A program made the position numbers and the translations under genes. A stretch of DNA of 64,000 bases from an uncultured Micrococcaceae bacterium (GTDB lineage Bacteria > Actinomycetota > Actinomycetes > Actinomycetales > Micrococcaceae), in assembly GCA_947502645.1 (NCBI GenBank), contig CANNAD010000002.1, positions 310,001-374,000 on the forward strand, given 5' to 3'. Under the pieces are notes generated by a model that saw only the letters and a program-made list of their open reading frames with translations, did no database searches and was not told the origin of the DNA. Of this stretch, positions 5,856-34,000 are shown in pieces (positions within the stretch are counted from its first letter, which is position 1; every line of letters starts with the position of its first letter).

Positions 5856-7625
<1,770 letters not shown>

Positions 7626-7662: not shown

Positions 7663-7714
7663 CCGCAGCGGGGGTTCGGCCTGTCAGATAAGTGTCAACG
7701 TGGCCCCGCCGCGG
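7663..7714 (-). promoter_or_regulatory. Candidate leucine attenuator stem upstream of leuA
   Basis: In the leuA transcript, 7714-7704 (CCGCGGCGGGG) pairs with 7673-7663 (CCCCGCUGCGG) over 11 bp with one G-U pair. The 5' arm is made of leader-peptide codons 10-14, directly after the Leu-Leu-Leu run. The 3' arm is followed by a moderately U-rich tail. A ribosome stalled on the Leu codons would cover the 5' arm and stop the stem forming. The pairing is seen; the terminator function is inferred. Confidence 0.5.
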
Positions 7715-7743
7715 CAGATAAGAAGGAGGATCTCTGCGCGCAC
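7684..7743 (-). CDS. leuL: Leucine-rich leader peptide of leuA (leuL-like), leaderless
   Basis: A 19-residue ORF, VRAEILLLICRGGATLTLI, contains five Leu and three Ile and ends with TGA 77 nt before leuA. Its GTG lies six T residues after TAGGGT, a TAnnnT -10 box preceded by TGC (extended -10), so the mRNA probably starts at the GTG itself. Leu-rich leaders with ribosome-mediated attenuation are known for actinobacterial leuA. The RNA stem at 7663-7714 supports that role here. No SD is present. Confidence 0.6.
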   Translation of the reverse strand: MRAEILLLICRGGATLTLI

Positions 7744-28210: not shown

Positions 28211-30709
28211 TTACACGGGAACGATGTTGACCAGCTTCGGTGCACGGACAATGACCGTACGAATTTCCTGACCGTCAAGCGCACGGAGCGCAGCTTCAGA
28301 GCGTAGTGCCAGTTCTCTGAGCTCGTCCTCTGTGATGTCAGGTGACACTTCGAGCCGGTCACGGACCTTGCCCTTGACCTGCACCACGGCGGTCAGGGTC
28401 TCCCGTGTGAGCAGGGATTCGTCGACGGCGGGCCACCCTGCTGCAGCTACGGACGGCTCGTGTCCAAGATTCGCCCACATGTCCTCCGCCGTGTAGGGCG
28501 CAAAAAGACTGAGGACGACGGCGACTGCCTCAGTGGCCTCGCGCACGGCGGGGTCAGCGGGTCCGGCGCCGGAATCGATTTCCTTGCGGGTGGCGTTCAC
28601 CAGTTCCATGACTTTGGCAACAACGACATTGAACTTGTGCTGGTCCAGCAATACGGCGGCGTCGGCGATGGTCCGATGCGTGACGGAGCGCAGGCTTCTG
28701 CTTCCTGTAGACGGGTCCGTTCCCGGGGCGGTTGCTACGTCGCGGGCGAGCCGCCAGGCGCGGGCCAGGAACTTTGCGGAGCCCGACGGAGATACGTCAG
28801 CCCAGTCGACGTCGTCTTCCGGTGGGGAGGCGAAGATCATGGTCAGGCGCACTGCGTCCACACCGTAGGTGCCCATCTGTTCACCGAGATCGACACCGTT
28901 GCCCAGCGACTTGCTCATGGCTTTGCCGCCATTGAGTACCTGCCCCTGGTTCAGGAGGGCATTGAATGGTTCGTCGAAGTCGATGAGTCCCAGGTCGTGG
29001 ATGACCTTTGTGAAAAACCGGGCGTATAGGAGGTGGAGGATAGCGTGTTCGACTCCGCCGACGTATTGCTGGACTGGCAGCCAGTTGTTGGCGGCCTCGC
29101 TGTCGAAGGGTCCGTCCGTGTAGCCAGGCGAAGTGAAACGCAAGAAATACCACGAGGAATCGACGAAGGTGTCCATGGTGTCGGTGTCTCGGGTAGCGGG
29201 TGCGCCGCACCGGGGACAGTCAACACTCGCCCACTCGCGGGCCGCTGCCAGCGGAGATGTTCCCTGCGGTGCGAGTTCCTCTCCGCGCAGGTTCTCCGGC
29301 AGCGTCACCGGCAGCTGGTCATCCGGGACAGGTACCTCACCACAGGTGGCGCAGTGAATGATGGGAATGGGGGTCCCCCAGAAGCGCTGCCGGGACAACA
29401 GCCAGTCACGGAGCCGGAAGTTGACCGTCTCCTCCCCGGCGTCGTCGGCAGCGAGAATTCGAACGGCTTCAGCAATGGCCTCGTCCTTGGGCAGCCCGCT
29501 AAGCGGCCCGGAATTGACGAGCGTGCCGTCGCCAGTGGTTGCTCGACCTGATTCGGCTGGATCTTCCTCGCCAGTATCCACGACAACGCGGACTGGTAGG
29601 TCGAAAGCCAGGGCGAAGTCGAGGTCGCGCTGGTCATGGGCGGGCACGGCCATGATGGAACCCGTTCCGTAATCGGCAAGAACGTAGTCAGCGGCCCACA
29701 CTGGGATACGTTCCCCACTGAGCGGGTTGAGTGCATAACGCCCGGTGAAAACGCCTGTCTTCTCGCGTTCGGTCGATTGGCGTTCAATCTCCGACAGGGA
29801 CCGGACCTTCTCACGGTAGGCCTCGAGCTCCGAGCGCTGCTCTTCGCTCACCAGTTCCATAGCCAGAGGCGAATCCGCGGCGACCACGTAGAACGTGGCA
29901 CCGTACAGGGTGTCCGCGCGGGTTGTGAATACGGTGACGTCGTGAGCGTCCTGCGTGGCGGTGGCTTCGATGCGGAAACGGACATGTGCTCCTGCGGAAC
30001 GTCCAATCCAGTTCCGTTGCATGGACAGCACGCGGTCCGGCCATCGTCCTTCCAGCTTCGCCATGTCGTCCAGAAGCCTGTCCGCATAGTCTGTGACACG
30101 GAAGTACCACTGGTTGAGGGACTTTTTGGTGACGGCGGTCCCGCAGCGTTCACAGGCACCGTTGACCACCTGTTCGTTGGCCAGCACCGTCTGGTCCTTG
30201 GGGCACCAGTTCACCGGGGAATCCTTGCGGTACGCCAGCCCCTTCTCGTAGAAGCGCAGGAACAGCCACTGGGTCCAGCGGTAGTACTCGGAATCAGAGG
30301 TGTGAAGTCTCCGTGACCAGTCAGCGCTGATGGCATAGCGTTTGAAAGAAGCTGCCTGGGTCTCGATATTGGTGTAGGTCCACTCGCTCGGGTGGGCGTT
30401 CCTCTTGATAGCCGCGTTCTCTGCAGGCAGGCCGAATGAGTCCCAACCGATCGGATGCAGTACGTCATAGCCCAGCTGACGCCAGTAACGGGCGACGACG
30501 TCGCCCATGGCGAACGCCTCGGCGTGCCCCATGTGGAGGTCGCCCGAAGGATACGGAAACATGTCCAGGACGTAGCGCCGTTCCCGGCTTCCGTCGTCGA
30601 GTGGCGTGAAGACCCCGAGCTCGTCCCACACTTCAGGCCACTTCCGCTCCATCGCGGTGAAGCTGTAGACGGCTTCCGACGACTGGGAATCAGTTGGCTC
30701 GTTACTCAC
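28211..30709 (-). CDS. leuS: Leucine--tRNA ligase
   Basis: An 832-residue class I aminoacyl-tRNA synthetase that charges tRNA-Leu. The HIGH motif is HMGH at 59-62 within [17 protein letters not shown] is KAMSKS at 596-601. The CP1 editing domain includes a T-rich [12 protein letters not shown] block, and the C-terminal domain is complete. The start is GTG 30709. A leader peptide with three consecutive Leu codons and a terminator lie 55-127 bp upstream, suggesting leucine-dependent attenuation. Confidence 0.97.
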
Positions 30710-30763
30710 TGGCTATGCCCTGTTCTCTTCTGTTTCTTCAACGAACTCCTACCCTGAACACAG

Positions 30764-30788
30764 AAAAACCCCTCGCGGCAACAAGGGG
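30764..30788 (-). terminator. Candidate attenuator terminator upstream of leuS
   Basis: On the minus strand CCCCT (30788-30784) pairs with AGGGG (30773-30769) across a 10-base loop, and five T residues follow (30768-30764). It lies 55 bp ahead of leuS and after a leader ORF, so it should end transcripts before leuS unless prevented. Confidence 0.6.
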
Positions 30789-30791
30789 CTG

Positions 30792-30810
30792 GCCACACGC
30801 TGGGTGTGGC
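30792..30810 (-). promoter_or_regulatory. Hairpin between the leuS leader ORF and the terminator
   Basis: GCCACAC (30810-30804) pairs with GTGTGGC (30798-30792) around a 5-base loop. The 5' arm begins with the last base of the leader stop codon, so a ribosome on the Leu codons or the stop would block it. Its relation to the terminator (pause, anti-antiterminator or other) is inferred. Confidence 0.5.
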
Positions 30811-30836
30811 TATCCAAGGAGAAGAATGTGATCCAT
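30810..30836 (-). CDS. Leucine leader peptide of leuS
   Basis: An eight-residue ORF, MDHILLLG, ends at TAG 101 bp before leuS. AAGGTGG (30841-30847) is a good SD four bases before the ATG. The codons CTT CTC CTT are consecutive, and two RNA hairpins follow, the second with a U tail. This matches ribosome-mediated attenuation by charged tRNA-Leu. I do not know of an established name for it. Confidence 0.6.
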   Translation of the reverse strand: MDHILLLG

Positions 30837-30893
30837 GAATCCACCTTAGCGCAGTTTGTATGCACCCTTGCCAGTCCAGGGTTACGATATTCA

Positions 30894-30913
30894 TGGTATG
30901 TGTGTGAATACCA
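30894..30913. promoter_or_regulatory. Candidate operator upstream of putA
   Basis: TGGTAT and ATACCA, 6-bp arms separated by 8 bases, lie 118 bp before the putA start. The arms resemble half-sites bound by GntR-type regulators. PutA here has no DNA-binding domain, so a separate regulator is expected. No regulator gene is adjacent. Confidence 0.35.
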
Positions 30914-31031
30914 CAAGCCGGGGCGGAGTGCGCCCGCGGCGGGGATCGGCTGACTCGCGCCAGGCGGGGCCAAGGGGACACCCTGGTCGGCGAAACGGCA
31001 GCCCGGCACATCGTTAGGTAATCAAATAATC

Positions 31032-34000
31032 ATGGGTAATAGCTTTACTCCAATGGACCCTGGTCCAGAGGAACTGGCTGACGATGTCGTAGCGCTCGTT
31101 GAGCGCTGGTTGCACCTCTCAGACAATTTCCATCCAACATCCACAGCGACACCGCTGAAATCCAATGTGGGCACAAAATCGGCGGCTTTGCTCGCTGAAG
31201 TACTCAAGGACACCTCGGGGCTCAACTTCACGATCGGGTTCGTGGACCGCGTTATCCGTCCGGAAGATACGAAAGTAGCTGCGAAGAATCTTTCCCAGCT
31301 GGCGGATCAGACGCCAACGTTCCTTCCGTGGTACATGCGTGCCGCCGTCCGGCTTGGTGGACGTCTCGCCCCTGCCCTTCCGTGGATCGTCGTTCCGGTG
31401 GCCCGACGGGTGCTTCGCGAGATGGTGGCTCATCTCATTGTGGACGCACGGCCGAATCATCTCACCAAGGCCATCTCCGAGCTGAAGGGTGATTCCTCAG
31501 TCCGTCTGAATATCAATCTTCTGGGTGAGGCAGTTCTTGGCGATGCCGAGGCAGATGCCCGCCTGGAGGGTACGCGCGAACTATTGGCGCGCGACGACGT
31601 CGACTACGTCTCCATCAAGGTTTCCTCTGTGGTCAGCTCGCTGAACATGTGGGCCTTTGATGAAATGGTGGAGCGGGTCTCGGAACGGCTGCTGCCGCTC
31701 TATAAGTTCGCTGCGTCCTCCCCCATGCCGAAGTTCATCAATCTGGACATGGAGGAATACCACGATCTGGATCTCACCGTTGCGGTATTCAAGCGCATTC
31801 TCGGGAATCCGGAGCTCAAGTACCTCGAAGGCGGTATCGTCCTCCAGGCTTACTTGCCTGATGCGCTAGGTGCGCTGCAGGATCTGACTGTCTGGACGAA
31901 GGAGCGCAAGGCCGACGGCGGCGCAGGCATCAAGGTTCGTCTGGTCAAGGGTGCCAACCTGCCGCTGGAAGTTGTTGACGCGACTCTTCACGGCTGGGAA
32001 GTGGCAACCTGCGACAGCAAGCAGGCAACGGACACCAATTACAAGCGTGTCCTTGACTGGGCGCTGCGGCCCGAGAACGCTGCAGCCGTCAGGATGGGTG
32101 TTGCCGGACACAACCTCTTCGATGTCGCCTTCGCGCGCATCCTGTCGGAGAAGCGTGGAGTCGCTGACCGTGTCGAATTCGAGATGCTCCTCGGAATGGC
32201 TGAGGAACAGGCCGCCGAGATCAAGAAGGACGTTGGTTCGCTCCTTCTCTACACGCCGGTGGTTCATCCCGACCAGTTCGACGTCGCCATCAGCTACCTG
32301 ATCCGGAGGCTGGAGGAAAACGCCAGCCAGGAAAACTTCATGTCGGCAGTTTTCGAGCTGACGTCCAACCCCACCCTGTTCATGCGGGAAAAGCAGCGTT
32401 TCCTCGATTCGTTGAGCGACGTGGATCTCGAAGTTCCTGAGCCGCAGCGGTCCCAGGAGACGGGCCGGTTTGTTGAGGCCAATGACGGAGACTTCGTCAA
32501 CCAGCCTGATTCCGACCCGTCGCTGAAGAACATTCGGCAGTGGGGCACGGGAATCATCAACCGCATGGAATCCTCGGATCTGGGCAAGGCCCTTGTTGAC
32601 GAGTCGTTCCTCGCCACCAATGAGGACGTCGACGCCGTCGTGTCGCGGGCTCTGGCAGCACAGCCCGATTGGGCAGCGCTGGGCGGTTCAGGGCGTAGCA
32701 AGGTGCTCCGGGAAGCAGCTGCGGTGCTCGCAGAACGTCGTGGCGATCTCATTGAGGTTGCTGGCAGTGAGACGGGCAAGACCGTCGCGGAGGCTGACCC
32801 GGAAATTTCCGAGGCGATCGACTTTGCTACCTACTATGCGTACCTGGCTGATGAACTCGATCAGGTTCCCGGTGCGAAGTTCGTCCCGTCGAAGCTCACG
32901 GTGGCTACTCCCCCATGGAACTTCCCCATCGCCATTCCGGCTGGTTCGATTCTGGCTCCGTTGGCGGCTGGAAGCGCAGTGATCATGAAGCCCGCACCTC
33001 AGGCGCGTCGCTGTGCAGCAGTCATCGTGCAGGCGTTGTGGGATGCAGGCATCCCGAAGGACGTCCTGATCTTCGCGGATGTGGAAGAGGGCGACGTCGG
33101 GCAGCACCTGATTGCCAATGAGTCCGTTGACCGTGTCATCCTGACCGGTGCCTACGACACCGCGAAGCTGTTCCGTTCGTGGCGCAGCGACCTGCCGTTG
33201 TTGGCGGAGACCAGTGGCAAGAACGCCCTGGTCATCACGCCGAGTGCGGATCTCGATCTTGCCGCAGCGGATTTGGTGAAGTCGGCCTTTGGGCACGCCG
33301 GGCAGAAGTGCTCTGCTGCGTCGCTGGGCATTCTCGTCGGTTCCGCCGCGCATTCGGAGCGGCTCCTGAACCAGATTGTCGACGCCGCGTCGTCACTGAA
33401 GGTGGGATACCCGCAGGATCCAGAGACCGAGATGGGTCCGATTATCGAACCCGCTGAGGGCAAGTTGAAGACGGCGCTGACCACACTCGACGACGGCGAA
33501 TCGTGGTTGGTTGAGCCCCGGCAGCTCGATGACACGGGCAGGCTCTGGTCCCCTGGAGTGCGCACTGGGGTGAAGCCCGGCAGCTACTTCCACCTCACCG
33601 AGTTCTTCGGTCCGGTACTGGGTCTGATCCACGTGGACACCATCGAGGAGGCCATCGAGGTTCAGAATGCCCCCGAATATGGGTTGACGGCAGGTCTTCA
33701 CAGCATGGACAGCCAGGAACTGGCGCAGTGGCTGGACGAGGTCCAGGGCGGCAACCTATACGTCAACCGAGGCATCACCGGCGCCATCGTGAGGCGGCAG
33801 CCCTTCGGTGGCTGGAAGCGCTCAGCAGTTGGACCGGGCGCGAAGGCGGGAGGCCCCAACTACCTCATCCACCTCGGCTCATGGGAACCGACTCCCCTGT
33901 TCCAGGGCGATGTTCACGTTGCTTTGAGTACTCCGGTCAGGCAGCTGCTGAAGTCAGCTGATCTGTCTCGTGAAGAAACAGCATTCCTGGGCCGCGCGCT

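Follow-up and report, generated by a model that had tools for sequence, protein, structure and literature searches.

The 64,000-nucleotide stretch of DNA analyzed here (the window) carries, upstream of leuS, a short leader that is real and under selection. Comparison with relatives establishes a conserved leader ORF, rare Leu codons within it, a covarying hairpin, a terminator and fixed distances. With moderate confidence, we take this leader to be a ribosome-mediated attenuator of leuS transcription, one that would sense charged leucine tRNA, and its most fitting place is in the Streptomyces leuS attenuator group, as a member from another family. A preliminary description of the same DNA had already proposed a Leu-codon attenuator of leuS. 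That proposal stands as the best reading by comparison of the codons, hairpin, terminator and an Ile swap, while its Shine-Dalgarno sequence is doubtful, and the exact textbook layout and the unusual status that it expected are not borne out.

Layout of the leader and the start of its ORF

Inspection of the window reveals a compact arrangement of leader elements (Table 1) ahead of leuS, the product of which scores 942.7 bits against TIGR00396 leuS_bact (cut-off 548.4). The first base of the 7-bp hairpin 1 is the last base (G) of the leader stop codon, the predicted intrinsic terminator begins one base past hairpin 1, and 54 nt lie between the end of the T-run and the leuS start. A terminator scan found one terminator, compared with 0.5 expected in shuffles, and also counted the first two bases of the T-run into the stem. 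The coordinates, peptide, hairpin at the leader stop, terminator with T-run and downstream leuS given in the preliminary description are all confirmed in the sequence. Two details are corrected, namely the Shine-Dalgarno sequence, discussed below, and a "5-bp GC stem" for the terminator, which undercounts a stem of 10 pairs with G-U included, 5 of them G-C.

Table 1. Features of the leuS leader region in the window
Feature	Position	Strand	Basis
-10 promoter box TAAGGT (putative)	30843..30848	-	sequence; kept TANNNT in relatives
leader ORF MDHILLLG*, probably leaderless (30836 to 30810: ATG GAT CAC ATT CTT CTC CTT GGA TAG)	30810..30836	-	sequence; like mini-ORFs in relatives
control codons CTT CTC CTT (Leu 5-7)	30816..30824	-	Leu position and codon counts
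hairpin 1, GCCACAC-ccagc-GTGTGGC	30792..30810	-	covariation
intrinsic terminator hairpin (predicted), AGCCCCTTGT-tgcc-GCGAGGGGTT	30767..30790	-	terminator scan, alignment, pair counts
terminator T-run (U-tract)	30764..30768	-	sequence
leuS, leucine--tRNA ligase, GTG start at 30709	28211..30709	-	ORF and TIGR00396

The Shine-Dalgarno sequence had been assigned to AAGGTGG (30847-30841), which lies 4 nt before the ATG. This word overlaps TAAGGT, 6 nt ahead of the leader ATG, and more probably belongs to the -10 box from which a leaderless ORF is transcribed. A distance of 6-7 nt from TANNNT is the usual one from a -10 box to a transcription start, so that transcription would begin on the A of the ATG or a base adjacent to it and the ORF is, judging from this spacing, probably translated as a leaderless message. 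In the nearest relative, which belongs to the same genus, TAAAGT stands in place of TAAGGT and the AAGG word is lost. All 41 leuS-type hits read for an RNA model of the leuS leader (R1), the window's own included, have TANNNT 6-7 nt ahead of the start; R1 begins at the ATG, so that the -10 region falls outside the RNA model. The box-to-start spacing across 84 unique ORFs is 6 nt in 66, 7 nt in 17 and 5 nt in 1; the first locus set required TANNNT, which makes the box present by construction, and left the spacing free from 5 to 8. Shine-Dalgarno-like words of at least 4 nt occur upstream of 14 of 91 unique leaders, a set in which TANNNT was required for entry, and 13 of them fall within a TANNNT word. 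Although AAGGTGG does occur at a plain 4 nt before the ATG, its use as a Shine-Dalgarno sequence on a longer transcript is very improbable in the light of the kept TANNNT, the few Shine-Dalgarno-like words and the reported leaderless state of S. lividans leuL2 (accessible text of PMC8079986).

The window also contains an inverted repeat, TGGTAT-N8-ATACCA (30894-30913, forward strand), between the leuS leader and a divergent ORF at 31032. The repeat is retained in the nearest relative and is perhaps an operator. The divergent ORF presumably resembles a proline dehydrogenase/aldehyde dehydrogenase.

Control codons, conservation and hairpin geometry

The short leader ORF is rich in codons for leucine, the amino acid of the regulated gene. 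For the 66 loci with enough leuS sequence, CTG makes up 69.6% of the Leu codons in leuS bodies and CTT 4.2%, compared with 18.5% and 45.5% in the leaders, where CTT encodes the last Leu at 56 of 66 loci. The window's own genes (34) use CTT for 15.6% of Leu codons. Position counts had earlier been anchored on the last Leu, which is partly circular, and were repeated with the stop codon as anchor on 70 unique short-type leaders selected on their promoter box, its spacing and the stop codon, Leu not being required. Counting towards the final codon, the three codons that precede it are Leu in 63, 59 and 69 of these leaders, respectively. That is to say, the second-last codon is Leu in 69 of 70, and 59 of those 69 are CTT. 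CTT likewise closes the run in 37 of 40 model-found leaders, a count that is not independent given that CTT is built into the model.

A leuS match occurs in 157 genomes of the family (Micrococcaceae), and the leuS 5' regions of 132 loci among them were read for a TANNNT box 6-7 nt before an ATG or GTG mini-ORF with at least two Leu codons. This mini-ORF test is passed by 80 of the 132 loci (LLL in 58), compared with 0/132 on the reverse strand and 0.57% of dinucleotide shuffles. The 52 failing loci include some that share the leuS start with Kocuria and Yaniella records. Leaders of relatives include MRAILLLS in Arthrobacter, MRRTLLLT in Nocardioides, MPARLLLVRPR in Actinomadura and MRSATLLLSGPRRP in Nonomuraea. 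The nearest relative encodes MDLILCLG, with three Leu and a broken run, and some leaders have promoter, ORF and terminator intact with one Leu only (MYSQRDLA, MNSQHNLA). These results indicate an element that is common in the family but not universal, apparently being absent or decayed in several genera. Loss of the Leu codons in close relatives, which the preliminary description had set against its own reading, is therefore seen in part, with the run broken in the nearest relative and 52 loci failing, while 80 keep the mini-ORF.

In the one-Leu leuS leaders of five loci (L015; L042, Glutamicibacter; L177-L179), the terminator has changed to CCCCCGAGTGG...TTTGGGGG. Decay or re-use of the attenuator is possible at these loci.

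Across the class, R1 has a match in 94 of 246 genomes at E<=0.01 and matches the window's own genome once only. Fifty R1 loci were read, comprising the 30 best and 20 chosen, 7 of the chosen being the second match in a genome, and the downstream gene is leuS in 40 of them. For five divergent leuS fragments TIGR00396 is the best family, with scores that do not reach its whole-protein cut-off.

An alignment of 45 distinct leaders reveals that 5 of the 7 pairs of hairpin 1 have changed on both sides. Both helices together hold 54 doubly changed cells, where shuffles give 14.6 and slid versions no more than 12, and the terminator arms CCCCU/AGGGG are nearly invariant across the 45 sequences. In the nearest relative hairpin 1 reads GCCGCAC/GTGCGGT, where one pair has changed on both sides (A-U to G-C) and one has become G-U. 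Sequence and covariation together place a predicted intrinsic terminator between the leader ORF and the gene.

Distances between these elements were taken from 102 loci, that is, 105 with an ORF and a terminator minus three with the wrong ORF (L180, L182, L187). Of these, 76 are family loci and the remainder lie outside the family; the set excludes 24 loci that have a candidate ORF and lack a terminator of loop <=10, several of which show a longer-loop one by eye. With narrow search boxes, the 5' arm of hairpin 1 begins 5 nt past the last Leu codon in 77/102 loci, and its 3' arm ends 0-1 nt from the terminator in 84/102 and -2 to 2 nt from it in 100/102. The loop of hairpin 1 ranges from 3 to 53 nt. 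An unrestricted search, in which the stem could fall anywhere from the last Leu codon to the terminator in 95 unique segments, gives a start at 5 nt in 0.695 (shuffles 0.058) and an end at 0-1 nt in 0.758 (shuffles 0.106); 59 of the 95 stems beat 95% of their own shuffles and 36 do not. The distance from Leu run to arm is about equal for leaders with the stop codon at the arm, as in the window, and for those with the stop beyond it (LLLSEPR* type). Hairpin 1 and the terminator have no bases in common in 93/102 loci.

Folding with a ribosome and the proposed mechanism

Folding with a ribosome placed along the leader indicates that hairpin 1 is an RNA structure dependent on ribosome position. 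Its mean pair probability over the 102 loci is 0.96 when the ribosome occupies the first Leu codon, 0.80 and 0.26 at the next two and 0.005 at the stop codon, ribosome-covered bases counting as unpaired by construction. Between a ribosome waiting at the first Leu and one that has reached the stop, it is hairpin 1 that changes, which would make it the ON-state structure if leucine shortage induces leuS. In the attenuator that we propose, RNA polymerase would start at or next to the ATG and the 8-codon ORF would be translated as a leaderless message. When leucyl-tRNA is plentiful, the ribosome would reach the stop codon and cover the 5' arm of hairpin 1, and transcription would halt at the terminator. 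When leucyl-tRNA is scarce, the ribosome would stall at the first Leu codon, hairpin 1 would fold just ahead of it, and transcription would continue past the terminator into leuS. Since the two hairpins share no bases, hairpin 1 would hinder the terminator by abutting it and not by pairing with its arm. From this layout we infer the response to leucine, its direction, the ON-state role of hairpin 1 and hindrance by contact or stacking.

Two observations fit stalling at the first Leu less well. The last Leu codon, not the first, is the best kept (69/70, compared with 63 for the first and 59 for the second) and the most often CTT (59/69), and a ribosome at the last Leu covers much of hairpin 1, which drops from 0.96 to 0.26. 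Both would suit an arrangement with the same Leu sensor in which hairpin 1 aids termination, either stacked on the terminator or as a polymerase pause hairpin, and comes apart at its base when a ribosome waits at the last Leu. Hairpin 1 directly abuts the terminator, a position suited to coaxial stacking, and a Y-G step follows 10-12 nt past hairpin 1 in 81/102 loci, a raw count taken without background. However, a stop-codon ribosome opens hairpin 1 still further (0.005), so that replete and starved cells would look alike unless the ribosome leaves quickly, and the model for M. tuberculosis ilvB1 assigns the opposite role (accessible text of PMC13236596). We regard a termination-aiding hairpin as unlikely, although it is the strongest of the alternatives to an ON-state hairpin 1.

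An antiterminator was sought by cutting each leader just before the 3' arm of the terminator and folding it with the ribosome at successive codons. In the E. coli controls the 5' arm of the terminator is sequestered with a ribosome at the control codons (trpL 0.71, thrL 1.0, leuL 0.85), thrL dropping to 0.75 at its last Thr codon, and is left free by a ribosome at the stop (0.01). Mean 5'-arm sequestration for 101 leuS leaders is 0.185 at the first Leu, then 0.20 and 0.33, and 0.39 at the stop, which is more at the stop than at the first Leu and thus opposite to the trend in E. coli trpL, thrL and leuL. By this cut-transcript folding, an overlapping antiterminator (sequestration of at least 0.5) is present at the first Leu in 2 of the 101 leuS leaders and in none of the other 99; the same level is reached at the last Leu in 16/101 and at the stop in 23/101. 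The window leader gives 0.39, 0.40 and 0.53 at its three Leu codons and 0.46 at the stop. Among 40 model-found leaders the values are 0.13, 0.11, 0.29 and 0.36, with none of the 40, including four with the S. lividans peptide, reaching 0.5 at the first Leu, and for 39 Ile-type leaders they are 0.15, 0.19, 0.30 and 0.35. Base by base, pairing of the terminator arm at the first Leu is 0.40 and 0.39 for the first two bases, 0.20 for the third and <=0.10 for later ones. The classical overlapping antiterminator of the E. coli trp type was thus not found. The preliminary description had called the layout "exactly" the known arrangement for attenuation, which fits the leader ORF, control codons and terminator and does not extend to an overlapping antiterminator, none being seen by cut-transcript folding.

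A classical overlapping antiterminator might be present and missed by secondary-structure folding, whether as a pseudoknot, a tertiary contact or through a protein. The terminator arms CCCCU/AGGGG, near-invariant in the 45 sequences, are conserved perhaps beyond what termination needs, and the Streptomyces leuS attenuator as drawn by Seliverstov et al. includes an antiterminator (accessible part of PMC1262725). Its appearance at the first Leu in 2/101 loci and 0/40 model-found leaders, in an assay that does detect those of E. coli trpL, thrL and leuL, makes a hidden antiterminator improbable.

Three further lines were rejected. Equilibrium folding with ribosome masks, where the terminator forms in nearly every state for leuS leaders and E. 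coli alike, was dropped as proof of no antiterminator and replaced by folding of cut transcripts, since it is also blind to those of E. coli trpL, thrL and leuL. A pairing noticed by eye between the Leu run and the terminator 3' arm GAGGGG is due to the pyrimidine-rich Leu codons and would give the wrong direction. A long-range stem between the Leu codons and the stretch past the terminator, found in the minimum-energy fold of 106 nt, was set aside because the terminator is made first.

Codon-swapped leaders and known attenuators

The R1 loci read that do not lie before leuS comprise eight before citramalate synthase, one before ilvB and one at a contig end. Identity was assessed on one protein for each gene with NCBIfam. 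The citramalate synthase scores 559 bits against TIGR00977 (cut-off 450), and the ilvB product is a fragment with a score below cut-offs. Leaders before cimA carry Ile codons (MQRTAIIIP, MHRTAIIIN, MQHRLIIIS and similar). A second model (R2) built from the eight cimA leaders has a match in 212 of 394 class genomes, and inspection of the next gene for 50 of those hits (the 30 best and 20 chosen) gives 45 cimA, 3 ilvB, 1 leuS (by tblastn) and 1 that is none of the three. From these 50, 5 without an ORF under a [TC]ANNNT rule and 1 duplicate were removed, leaving 44 distinct leaders that include one leuS (L317), three ilvB and one mis-picked ORF (L315). The codon-to-arm distance is 5 nt in 29 of the 44 and the gap to the terminator 0-1 nt in 38, R1 and R2 hits being biased towards the models' own geometry, and the last control codon is ATT in 33. 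The terminator sequence of cimA leaders is unlike that of leuS leaders. CANNNT before the start is commoner there than TANNNT, so that a leaderless start of cimA leaders rests on a looser rule. The cimA leader loci (L252-L256, L266-L268 and 45 of L275-L324) are distributed across the class, and the ilvB version has the same layout with Leu/Val codons.

The window's own genome has no cimA above cut-off. Upstream of its ilvB (L325, near 625.7 kb), a mini-ORF MQLVSVVLIIRRVA with Val/Leu/Ile codons and a T-run after a G+C-rich stretch was read by eye, not being flagged by the -10 scan. This mini-ORF is likely the leader of a branched-chain attenuator in the same genome.

The failure of 52/132 family loci in the mini-ORF test and the existence of one-Leu leaders such as MYSQRDLA weigh against attenuation. 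A constitutive partial terminator behind a by-product ORF that senses nothing would account for MYSQRDLA and MNSQHNLA, which have lost most Leu codons and retain ORF and terminator, but it is highly improbable given the rare Leu codons, the Ile swap at cimA and the constant codon-to-hairpin distance. Returning to the attenuator reading, it is possible, though we would not count on it, that Actinomycetes use modular leaderless attenuators at leuS (Leu), cimA (Ile) and ilvB (Leu/Val), in which an ON-state hairpin, set 5 nt past the last control codon and flush with the terminator while sharing no base pairs with it, acts by contact or stacking and only the two end distances matter, leaving the loop free.

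Control of this kind has precedents. An attenuator of Streptomyces leuS was predicted in 2005 (accessible part of PMC1262725), and S. lividans leuL2, MRAVRLLLSEPR, was reported as leaderless and annotated with RNA-seq in 2021 (accessible part of PMC8079986). Attenuation of a synthetase gene, which the preliminary description had thought unusual, is on this evidence not new to Actinobacteria. R1 finds the peptide MRAVRLLLSEPR, identical to that of leuL2, in four loci read (L247, L250, L251, L260). As in the window, leuL2 combines an LLL peptide reported as leaderless with a hairpin and U-run before leuS (PMC8079986, in part), and the window has TANNNT 6-7 nt before the leader start (TAAGGT + 6), as in the leuL2 type. 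In contrast, the leuL2 leader, as given in the accessible text, runs through the first hairpin arm (LLLSEPR*), whereas the stop codon in the window lies at the arm. An antiterminator is also published for Streptomyces leuS (accessible text of PMC1262725), whereas folding of model-found leaders here shows none.

Branched-chain attenuators before ilvB offer a second comparison. Like the window, they pair a branched-chain uORF with a hairpin beside the terminator, as far as the accessible parts of PMC13236596, PMC11857589 and, for Corynebacterium ilvB-II, PMC10272879 describe them, and the C. glutamicum ilvBNC leader starts one nucleotide from its start codon (PMC11857589). In M. tuberculosis ilvB1, changing LVVI to AAAA abolished induction, and the proposed model has the antiterminator masked by a ribosome that sits at the stop (PMC13236596, in part). 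An ON-state role for hairpin 1 would be the assignment proposed there, and would come close to C. glutamicum ilvBNC, where a boundary trinucleotide is common to antiterminator and terminator (PMC11857589, in part). The structures of the ilvB attenuators are described as mutually exclusive, with overlap stated in the accessible text of both Corynebacterium papers, whereas the hairpins of the leuS leaders share no bases in 93/102 loci. For S. coelicolor, the accessible part of PMC1262725 records codon changes without effect at ilvB and, at leuA, a codon-change effect at odds with classical attenuation.

The E. coli trp, thr and leu attenuators resemble the window in their control-codon leader ORF and intrinsic terminator. 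Their antiterminator pairs with the terminator 5' arm, in contrast to the leuS leaders, where the assay finds none. The E. coli leaders are also not known to be leaderless. T-box leaders sense tRNA charging before aminoacyl-tRNA synthetase genes. No T-box is among the three Rfam rows returned by cmscan at E<=10 for 30500-31100, all of which fall far below gathering scores, and 11 leader loci read have no Rfam match at the gathering threshold; a T-box or other Rfam element as the leuS leader was ruled out by these scans of the window and the 11 loci. T-boxes of ileS are described in PMC1262725 (accessible part).

The LEU element before leuA in Actinobacteria has a Leu-run leader, as does the leuS element of the window, and the accessible part of PMC1262725 describes it as a pseudoknot with a leader peptide for which classical attenuation was judged unlikely. 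The window contains a GTG mini-ORF, VRAEILLLICRGGATLTLI (7684-7743, reverse strand), six nt after TAGGGT and before leuA (first start at 7607). This mini-ORF fits the description of a LEU element leader and is a candidate for one.

The literature searched, to which most subscription papers did not belong, holds no description of the cimA leader version, the spread in the family or the two fixed distances. As far as searched, the spread in the family, the cimA version and the fixed-distance geometry are therefore new. Fixed distances without antiterminator pairing raise the question of how a hairpin can defeat an adjoining terminator, which can be tested with one short template. If the attenuator reading is true, the cimA and ilvB leaders would serve as natural codon-swap controls, and charging-dependent control of leuS would be common in actinobacteria, given R1 matches in 94/246 class genomes and a position before leuS for 40 of the 50 loci read.
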